A stretch of 64,000 nucleotides of DNA. Source: Candidatus Gastranaerophilales bacterium (lineage in GTDB: Bacteria; Cyanobacteriota; Vampirovibrionia; Gastranaerophilales; Gastranaerophilaceae). Positions 32,694-63,718 of the stretch are shown here, in pieces. Location: contig CALUTD010000012.1 in assembly GCA_944323625.1 (NCBI GenBank), forward strand, positions 1 through 64,000. Direction: 5' to 3'. Below the pieces are notes generated by a model that was given only the letters and a program-made list of their open reading frames with translations, searched no databases and was not told the origin of the DNA. Positions within the stretch are counted from its first letter, which is position 1; every line of letters starts with the position of its first letter. Position numbers and translations under genes: made by a program.

Positions 32694-33393
32694 TTAAATT
32701 TCTGTTAATACATTTATTGTACAACCTGCCCCATTCATTGTATTTGAAGATGTTGAAGCACAATATTCATTATTTTCTGAATAATAATCAGTTCCTTTTG
32801 CTCCCATTGGTAAGAGTTCACCGTTATTCATAATTTGAAACATAAAAAGATCTTTGCCTAATCTGTTAGGTTTTTTACCGATTCCGTTTACATCAACAGA
32901 AATATATGTTCTTACAGATGAACCATTTTCTAAAAGTATCAAGCTTCCGTCATTTAATACGAATTGTCCGTCATCAAACTTACTTAAATCGATTTGAATA
33001 CCAGAGTATGTTTTGTATGTTTTTGAACTTTTTTCGTCTGCTCCATAATTTTTTATGCAAGAATTTTCAACATCAGTTGAACCGTAACCGCAATCGAACA
33101 TTACATTAAGGTATTTCATTAATATTGTTTTTAAAGTATGTTGTCCTAAATCTGAACTCGTAATTCTCTCTCCGTTTTCAACTTGATATTTATCGAGAGC
33201 TTGTTTTAAAACCGAGTAATTTTTCTTTAATGATGATTTTATTGCTTGATTTTGGTAATTTGCAAATATTACAGGTACTGTTATGGATGCAATAATTCCG
33301 ATGATAACTAATGTTATTAATACTTCTGAAAGTGTAAAAGATTTTTTACTTAAAAATCCCCCCCCCCGTGCTAAATTTGCAATTTTTCAACAT
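32694..33393 (-). CDS. Pilin-like protein with poly-G leader; out of frame as sequenced (locus 3, 10 G)
   Basis: A more diverged member of the poly-G pilin set. The leader starts at 33393 and reads MLKNCKFST before a run of 10 G (33358-33367 on the given strand as C). As sequenced it stops at 33348-33346. The pilin frame has no start codon before [20 protein letters not shown]. With 9 G the two join to 232 residues with an 18-residue leader. In-frame removal of one G gives [11 protein letters not shown] before the cleavage motif. The body contains [17 protein letters not shown] but lacks the WExKDDYP ending of its relatives. The Met at 33119 is far inside the body. Confidence 0.78.
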
Positions 33394-53772: not shown

Positions 53773-54426
53773 TTATAATTTTAACGGATAATCATTCTTT
53801 ATTTCCCAACCGTCCATTTGAATAAGCTGTGTACATGAATAACCAGTAGTTTTGCAATCAGAAATTACTTCTTCTCTTGTGCAATCATAACAATCAACGG
53901 AGCTAAAAGATTCAACATTATGATTTTTCATTTCTCCTGAATTGTTAATTGCAAAATAAAAAATATCTCTTCCTAAAATATTAGGATTTTTTTCACCATT
54001 TATATCAACGTAAACATATATAGAGGCAGGAATAGAATTATCAATACTTGGTGAATTATTGTCAAATCCAATAATTGTACCATCATTTAAATATACGGTA
54101 TAAAGCCCTCTTGGCTGTCCTGCTTGAAATTCTTCGCCGCTTATTAAACCGGCAGAAGTATAGCTAAAATATTTTTGTAAATATGTTTCAAAAAATGCTG
54201 TATAACCTGCGTTTCTAAAATCCCATTCATAGGAAGGTACTCCTTGTTCGATTTCTGCCAATCTTACTGCATTAGAGAAAGTAGAATAAAATTTTTTCAA
54301 CTTTGCAGCTGTTTCGGTTTTTTTATGATTTGCCATAACAACAGGTACTGTAATTGCAGCAATGATTCCTATAACTACAAGCGTAATTAATACTTCTGCC
54401 AAAGTGAATGATTTTATCTTTTTCAT
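53773..54426 (-). CDS. Pilin-like protein with its own start (locus 4)
   Basis: A 217-residue type IV pilin-like protein that starts at its own ATG: MKKIKSFTLAEVLITLVVIG. The leader before FTLAE is thus only six residues, with Ser rather than Gly at -1. The body contains DINGEKNPNILGRDIFYF and ends WEIKNDYPLKL, like loci 1 and 2. GGAG stands 10 bases upstream of ATG. The gene is preceded by a hairpin (54491-54517) and by a poly-G leader ORF at 54601. Its closest relative in the window is the cut-off gene at 63794. Confidence 0.93.
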   Translation of the reverse strand: MKKIKSFTLAEVLITLVVIGIIAAITVPVVMANHKKTETAAKLKKFYSTFSNAVRLAEIEQGVPSYEWDFRNAGYTAFFETYLQKYFSYTSAGLISGEEFQAGQPRGLYTVYLNDGTIIGFDNNSPSIDNSIPASIYVYVDINGEKNPNILGRDIFYFAINNSGEMKNHNVESFSSVDCYDCTREEVISDCKTTGYSCTQLIQMDGWEIKNDYPLKL

Positions 54427-54471
54427 ATTTTAAATTCTCCTATATAATAATATACCAATATTTGTCAATAT

Positions 54472-54601
54472 TTAAACAAAACAAAACAAAATCAATATTT
54501 CCTTGTGAAATATTGATTGAAATTTTTTAAAAAAATATGACATATAGATGTTTTTAGGCTCTAATTTACCCCCCCCCGTAGCGGTTTAATGAATTATTCA
54601 T
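54472..54601 (-). CDS. Poly-G leader ORF of locus 4 (9 G, stops early as sequenced)
   Basis: The ATG at 54601 follows AAAAAAGGAGAT and reads MNNSLNRY, then 9 G (54569-54577) and an immediate TAA (54568-54566). With 8 G the frame stays open for 31 more codons, passes fully through the hairpin at 54517-54491 and its T-rich tail, and stops at 54474-54472. It never joins the pilin at 54426. I propose a leader peptide whose translation decides whether the hairpin forms. It may instead be the remnant of an older fused pilin. Confidence 0.6.
54491..54517 (-). terminator. Terminator-like hairpin between poly-G leader and pilin (locus 4)
   Basis: On the minus strand ATCAATATTTC and GAAATATTGAT form an 11-bp stem with an ACAAG loop, followed by TTTGTTTTGTTT. 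It is AT-rich, so termination may be partial. The same stem occurs at 63703-63728. Confidence 0.6.
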
Positions 54602-54625
54602 ATTTTTATCTCCTTTTTTATTTAT

Positions 54626-54653
54626 ATTATCATATATTCTTGAATTTATGCAA
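54626..54653 (-). promoter_or_regulatory. Promoter of poly-G leader, locus 4
   Basis: On the minus strand TTGCAT (54653-54648), a 16-base spacer and GATAAT (54631-54626), followed by the shared TATAAATAAAAAAGGAGAT stretch. Confidence 0.6.
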
Positions 54654-54746
54654 ATATTAATCAAAGTATTAGTTATATATTTTATTACAATTAAAATTGT
54701 TCAAACAAGATTTCAATAAATCTAAATACCTGTAAAATATTAAATT

Positions 54747-56132: not shown

Positions 56133-56922
56133 TTAATATTCATTTGAAATATCACGCCTTCTATAGTCCATGTTACCTTTTGTTATAACCCAATATGTGC
56201 ATACAAGACCATTCCTACTTGATGTATCCTTATACTTACATATACTGCCGTAAGCAGAATTATAATCTTTTTCTCCAGGAAGCAATATGCCATCTTTTGA
56301 AATTAAAAAATTGAAATAATCAACGCCTGCTCTATTAGGCCCTTTATCACCATTTATATCCACGTGTATAGCACCGCAAACCCTACTAAACTTTCCGCTA
56401 CCAAATATACTACTATCTGTAATGCACCCACTTCCTCCTGACCATAAGCCAAATGCTACTCCGTTTGCAAGAATACCCCTAGAATATGCACTATGGGTTG
56501 ATGGCTGCCAAGCATATTGTGCGCCGAATAATGATTTATAAGTCCCCGAATAAAAACATCCTGAATCAGTTTCACATTCTTTTGCTTTGTTTAGATAAGG
56601 TTTTAATATATTGTATAACTTTTTTGCACCTGCTTGAGAATCTTTATTTCCTAAATCCCAATCTTCTATAGCTCCATTGTCTTTAATTGCCAATATGTAA
56701 GCCTGTGAAAAAATAGAATAAGTTTGTTTTAAACGTTCTACCAAAATTCTTTCTTGATATTTGTTAACTATAACAGGTACTGTTATTGCTGCAATAATTC
56801 CGATAACAACAAGAGTAATTAAAACTTCCGCCAGTGTAAATGAATATTCCGGAAATAAAAAATATTTTCCGAAAATCGACCCGTGTTTACCCCCCCCCGT
56901 AATGAGTTGTTGTATTATTCAT
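56133..56922 (-). CDS. Pilin-like protein with poly-G leader; out of frame as sequenced (locus 5, 9 G)
   Basis: The ATG at 56922 follows AGAGGAGATAAGATT and reads MNNTTTHY, then 9 G (56890-56898) and an immediate TAA. The pilin frame has no start codon before YSFTLAEVLITLVVIGIIAA. With 8 G the two join to give 262 residues, again with exactly 27 residues before FTLAE. The body differs from loci 1, 2 and 4 (NKYQERILVERLKQTYSIFS) but keeps DINGDKGPNRAGVDYFNF. It ends RRRDISNEY and lacks the WExKDDYP ending. The Met at 56744 lies after the helix. Confidence 0.82.
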
Positions 56923-63615: not shown

Positions 63616-63718
63616 ATGTATAAACCAGTAAACCGCCACGGGGGGGGGTAGAACAAAAGAAAAAAGTACAGAAATAACATATTTTATAAATAATAAATTA
63701 TTATCAATATTTCAATAG
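63616..63718 (+). CDS. Poly-G leader ORF of locus 6 (9 G, stops early as sequenced)
   Basis: The ATG at 63616 reads MYKPVNRH, then 9 G (63640-63648) and TAG at once (63649-63651). With 8 G the frame stays open for 22 more codons after the G tract and stops at TAG 63716-63718, which overlaps the loop of the hairpin at 63703-63728. It does not join the pilin at 63794. Same architecture as locus 4. Expression of a peptide is unproven. Confidence 0.6.

Follow-up and report, generated by a model that had tools for sequence, protein, structure and literature searches.

A poly-G leader and a terminator-like hairpin ahead of pilin genes in Gastranaerophilales: a candidate slipped-strand attenuator

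How could a poly-G tract act on a pilin gene whose reading frame it leaves untouched? This question is raised by a locus, designated locus 4, in a stretch of 64,000 nucleotides from a Candidatus Gastranaerophilales bacterium (this whole stretch is referred to below as the window). A short leader ORF containing the tract is followed there by a hairpin, a promoter-like element and a pilin-like gene with a start of its own. We describe this layout, its recurrence in two species and the explanations that may account for it.

Layout of leader, hairpin and pilin at locus 4

All features of locus 4 are on the minus strand. The pilin-like protein (217 aa, 53773-54426) contains a class III signal and an N-terminal methylation motif, MKKIKS/FTLAEVLITL (Pfam N_methyl, PF07963, 24.1 bits versus a cut-off of 21.2). 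It starts with its own ATG at 54426, preceded by its own Shine-Dalgarno sequence (GGAG, 54437-54440, as read from the sequence), and lies behind a hairpin with a T-rich tail, each of these elements being found where the initial annotation had placed it. The hairpin (54518-54490) is terminator-like, with a 12-bp AT-rich stem, and reads AATCAATATTTC-ACAAG-GAAATATTGATT, followed by the tail TTGTTTTGTTTTGTTT (54474-54489, likewise read from the sequence). The free energy of the stem is about -10.3 kcal/mol, and the z score of the region is -2.6. A terminator scanner passed over this hairpin, as it demanded three G-C pairs and the stem has two; in place of the consensus terminator scan, hairpins were then searched for specifically, with shuffles for comparison. 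Between the hairpin and the pilin is a second promoter-like element (54441-54468; TTGACA, 16 nt, TATATA; 10 of 12 matches), which was recognized in the family alignment and is statistically indistinguishable from chance at locus 4.

The leader begins with an ATG at 54601-54599, preceded by GGAG (54610-54613, read from the sequence) at a place where AGGAG recurs in paralogs. Further upstream, a promoter-like element was detected at 54626-54654 (TTTGCA, 17 nt, GATAAT; 9 of 12 matches); sites as good as this one occur in the region at chance level, and a ATATGATAATATAA block is found again ahead of most leaders in the family. As assembled, the tract has 9 G (54569-54577), and the leader ORF (54566-54601) encodes only MNNSLNRYGGG, with a TAA (54568-54566) directly after the tract, which agrees with the initial annotation that the leader stops at once with 9 G. 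Its companion claim, that the 8-G frame stays open through both arms of the hairpin and the T-tail, was also confirmed: with 8 (or 11) G the leader ORF spans 54472-54601 and ends at a TAA (54474-54472), 31 codons past the tract.

It had also been proposed that a stop-free run of this length is not expected in such AT-rich DNA, which is too strong a statement for one locus. In dinucleotide shuffles of locus 4, the 8-G frame was open this far with P = 0.059 and any frame with P = 0.16, and the 31-codon open run was dropped as a significant feature by itself. The joint pattern, in which one frame is open for at least 94 nt and both others are closed within 5 nt, has a P of about 0.003. The open run at a single locus is weak evidence, and the case is carried by the family pattern. 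Poly-G tracts are strongly enriched in this genome: 14 G8 matches were found in the window versus 0.28 expected, and TACG8 had 44 matches genome-wide versus none for the reversed-pattern control.

Split leaders in two species

The layout of locus 4 and its kin (leader, hairpin, promoter-like element and pilin with its own start) is referred to as split. The set comprised 20 split leaders, 17 from this genome and 3 from a relative (G008), to which 3 further leaders from G008 were added, giving 23 in two species. In all 23, the frame set by 8 or 11 G was open for 37-125 nt past the tract (one of these frames reached the contig end), and the frames set by 9 and 10 G stopped at 0-26 nt. A hairpin with a T-tail was detected in 21 of the 23, starting 41-56 nt after the tract, and no good hairpin was found at the split loci L003 and L009. 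Conservation of the open frame in relatives, which the initial annotation had named as a check, was borne out in both species: in 21 of 21 hairpin-bearing leaders the 8/11-G frame stopped inside or beyond the hairpin or no more than 15 nt before it (13-15 nt short in L004 and L043), whereas this was true for none of the 42 other frames. The paralogs are related by descent and such locus counts are not independent. When hairpins were grouped, the open frame reached the hairpin in 7 of 11 groups (P = 2e-4 if the groups are independent, which they are only in part). Besides locus 4, the window contains one split locus with a hairpin layout like that of locus 4, at 63640.

The hairpins themselves are conserved as structures. 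Comparably stable hairpins were obtained in 1 of 1200 shuffles. Among 11 similar stems, 8 of them from other loci and of the locus 4 type, five base pairs were changed on both sides with pairing kept (0 of 500 shuffles), and 97.8% of the cells in these stems were paired versus 41-51% in slid controls. In G008 this position is occupied by a hairpin whose stem (TGCAC...) is unrelated in sequence. Codon differences among leaders were mostly non-synonymous (120 versus 23 synonymous); purifying selection on the leader peptide is unsupported, its amino acids are not conserved, and what is kept is therefore the openness of the frame. Tract lengths of 8, 9, 10 and 11 are all present among paralogs (one genome was available per species), and most loci have 9-10 G, which is the OFF phase under an attenuation reading.

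The sequence shows the elements, the frames, their conservation in the family and the covariation of the hairpins; that the tract slips in vivo, that transcripts terminate, that ribosomes block the hairpin and how large the effect would be are all inferred. Locus 4 would be a slipped-strand, translation-controlled attenuator ahead of a type IV-like pilin gene, with a leader that is both transcribed and translated. With 9 or 10 G, the ribosome would halt 45-50 nt before the hairpin, which would then fold and end most transcripts (OFF or low); with 8 or 11 G, the ribosome would enter the hairpin and prevent its folding, and transcription would go on into the pilin (ON or high). It is by analogy that we expect low expression at locus 4 from 9-10 G and high expression from 8 or 11 G. 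In Streptococcus gallolyticus pil1, mutants proved that expression is low when the leader stop lies about 40-50 nt ahead of the stem-loop and high when it lies 4 nt ahead of it or inside it (PMC3894217). In another study, a single inserted G shifted the stop so that it lay 5 bp instead of 28 bp ahead of a terminator; termination dropped from around 90% to less than 10%, and full termination needed a distance of >27 nt between stop and terminator (PMC4824070). The tract-length and ribosome-blocking logic put forward in the initial annotation fits locus 4 and 20 further hairpin-bearing split leaders, whose stop distances match these measured thresholds (PMC4824070, PMC3894217); the part that needs qualification is the dependence of the pilin on read-through, since its transcription may not depend wholly on it.

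Several features may weaken such a switch. The AT-rich stem may give weak termination, and the leader, with about 83 nt between its ATG and the hairpin, may be too short for the ribosome to catch up fully; it has been argued that, if RNA polymerase does not pause, it is rarely reached by a ribosome within the first 100 bp (PMC4824070). In addition, the pilin probably has a weak proximal promoter that allows some expression independent of the leader, and the switch would therefore set a level and not an absolute state; judging by the promoter-like element ahead of the pilin, it may modulate rather than gate. With these reservations, the sequence features lead us to consider attenuation at locus 4 somewhat more probable than not.

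Fused pilins and alternative explanations

This genome encodes 59 pilin relatives of locus 4. Two species of the same genus have 54 and 61, and most other genomes have fewer than 20. An orthologue of the locus itself was not found among the contigs of the named genomes, where relatives were only 31-43% identical; the closest of the named relatives place the organism in Candidatus Gastranaerophilales. Many of these pilins have a fused layout, in which the leader and tract are followed by about 16 codons that run straight into FTLAEVLITL; the leader is continuous with the pilin, and the tract therefore switches the pilin frame directly. Promoter, Shine-Dalgarno sequence and leader are common to the split and fused genes. 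An 8- or 11-G tract is needed for the in-frame pilin in 38 of 48 fused loci of this genome (the phaseable loci in the part that was sampled) and in 17 of 19 in G008, i.e., the ON phase of most fused paralogs is that of the split leaders. As assembled, 5 of the 48 and none of the 19 are in frame, and a third would be expected. Two loci, L129 and L130, were excluded, the grounds being an upstream poly-C without a leader and a tract that belongs to a divergent neighbour.

Additional observations were made on these tracts. The window contains four poly-G leaders fused to pilins, on two strands (19686, 25528, 33358-33367 and 56890-56898). Tracts in the opposite orientation (poly-C) are present in the pilin leaders L005, L020 and L021 and in most G008 fused pilins (L149, L151, L155 and others), and when reverse-complemented their flanks, TTA-C9-GTAGCG, give the common CGCTAC-G9-TAA. 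Two fused pilins of this genome (L122 and L140, C6) share 99-100% identity over about 160 nt beginning with the tract, compared with 55% beyond this patch and 38% upstream, a pattern that points to recombination or gene conversion in the conserved N-terminal part. In one region of this genome (L056, C4:4000-11000), G10-G11 tracts occur within genes resembling those of surface-sugar biosynthesis, and poly-G switching is therefore not limited to pilins.

Genes with a Shine-Dalgarno sequence, ATG, leader and poly-G tract were detected in 102 of 286 genomes of the order, often dozens per genome; their distribution was patchy by genus, and they were almost absent in reversed-pattern controls. In an order-wide sample of 30 loci, many ran into the pilin motif close to the tract. 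In this small sample the hairpin-bearing split layout was found in G008 only, and elsewhere it was observed in this genome alone. It is possible, and we suggest this tentatively and with less than even confidence, that one promoter-Shine-Dalgarno-leader-poly-G module has two uses within the same genome, serving dozens of fused pilins as a direct frame switch and about twenty split ones as an attenuator, with ON at 8 or 11 G and the usual 9 or 10 G being OFF in most loci, such that each cell would draw a small random subset from some sixty pilins.

The common leader module can also be read differently. The pilin may be transcribed from its own promoter just 3' of the hairpin, which would end the leader transcript and insulate the pilin, leaving the leader and tract as a remnant, or as a stretch copied from the beginning of a fused phase-variable pilin, that does not control the gene behind it. 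This is consistent with the promoter, Shine-Dalgarno sequence and leader held in common with fused genes and with a promoter-like element (TTGAYW-N16-TATWAT) that most split loci have at a constant position between the hairpin and the pilin; the element is near-perfect (TTGACT-N16-TATAAT) in G008 and in L123, a pilin without a tract. However, L004, L041, L029 and L009 no longer have the -35 box, and the element of locus 4 has a shorter spacing than in paralogs, with its -10 box, TATATA, abutting the Shine-Dalgarno sequence; dependence on read-through may thus differ by locus. An independent promoter also leaves unexplained why the open frame runs into or close to the hairpin in all 21 leaders and the other frames close at once. 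We regard such an origin of pilin transcripts as unlikely, yet deserving of serious consideration.

A second alternative keeps a role for the tract and removes heritable switching: non-mutational slippage, either of RNA polymerase on G9-10 or as ribosomal frameshifting at GGG.TAA, would give a fixed low level of ON product. The open frame is one base of slippage away from 9 G, the stop immediately after 9 G recurs, few fused pilins are in frame as assembled, and tract lengths are very uniform (9 G in 17 of the 19 fused genes of G008), all of which would suit such a process. On the other hand, lengths of 8, 9, 10 and 11 are found among paralogs, as in slipped-strand loci, and G10-11 tracts are also present inside other genes, of the surface-sugar type; we therefore consider fixed slippage improbable. 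The inverted repeat could also be read as an operator, bound by a protein that regulates the pilin promoter, with the tract unrelated to it. This reading was suggested by the stem arm AATATTGA, which resembles AATATTGA of the adjoining promoter-like element, and is disfavoured as very improbable, since stems of differing sequence occupy the same place, compensatory changes keep their pairing, and each is followed by a T-run on the sense strand.

Comparison with known systems

In Campylobacter, Neisseria and Helicobacter, poly-G/poly-C contingency genes have G8-11 tracts near the starts of surface genes, where they switch the frame. The fused pilins of this genome match these genes. The split locus differs from them: in contingency genes the tract is in the switched gene or in its promoter spacer, whereas the tract of locus 4 leaves the reading frame of the pilin intact. 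With regard to ribosome blocking, the proposed attenuator resembles E. coli pyrBI, in which a ribosome close behind RNA polymerase enters a terminator within the leader ORF (pyrL) and blocks termination; however, control there is by UTP-dependent pausing and not by a mutable tract (PMC4824070). The literature searched yielded nothing relevant to phase variation in either Gastranaerophilales or Melainabacteria.

As far as this literature shows, slipped-strand attenuation has one worked example. If the attenuation reading is true, more than 20 natural copies in uncultured gut Cyanobacteriota would mean that the principle arose independently, and their differing hairpins, stop distances and tract lengths would offer a ready series on how the stop-to-hairpin distance sets read-through. 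Pilin expression in these common gut bacteria would then be mostly off and randomly drawn, and consensus assemblies would hide this draw by calling such genes frameshifted.

The worked example is S. gallolyticus pil1/pil3, where the joining of slipped-strand repeats to attenuation was proven by mutants in 2014 (PMC3894217), so that the suggestion in the initial annotation that such a switch is undescribed does not hold. Locus 4 has the elements of an attenuator of this type: a leader ORF with a Shine-Dalgarno sequence, an ATG and a slippage-prone repeat, a stem-loop with a T-run between leader and pilus gene, and one phase that stops well before the hairpin while another stops in or near it. 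In both systems a short repeat lies in the leader ORF and its number sets the frame, the stop geometry is similar, pilus genes are downstream, and the OFF-type length is the common one. The differences are also clear. The S. gallolyticus repeats are GCAGA pentamers (13-22 copies) at two loci controlling Firmicute sortase pili, whereas those described here are G8-11 homopolymers at more than twenty loci ahead of Gastranaerophilales N-methyl pilins, with a promoter-like element after the terminator and with the same leader module fused directly to other pilins; and the S. gallolyticus switch was proven by mutants, whereas the present system is known from sequence alone. Phase variation joined to attenuation is thus already known, and the novelty lies in the tract being a homopolymer, in the number of copies, in the class of pilin and the lineage, and in the occurrence of one module as both frame switch and candidate attenuator.
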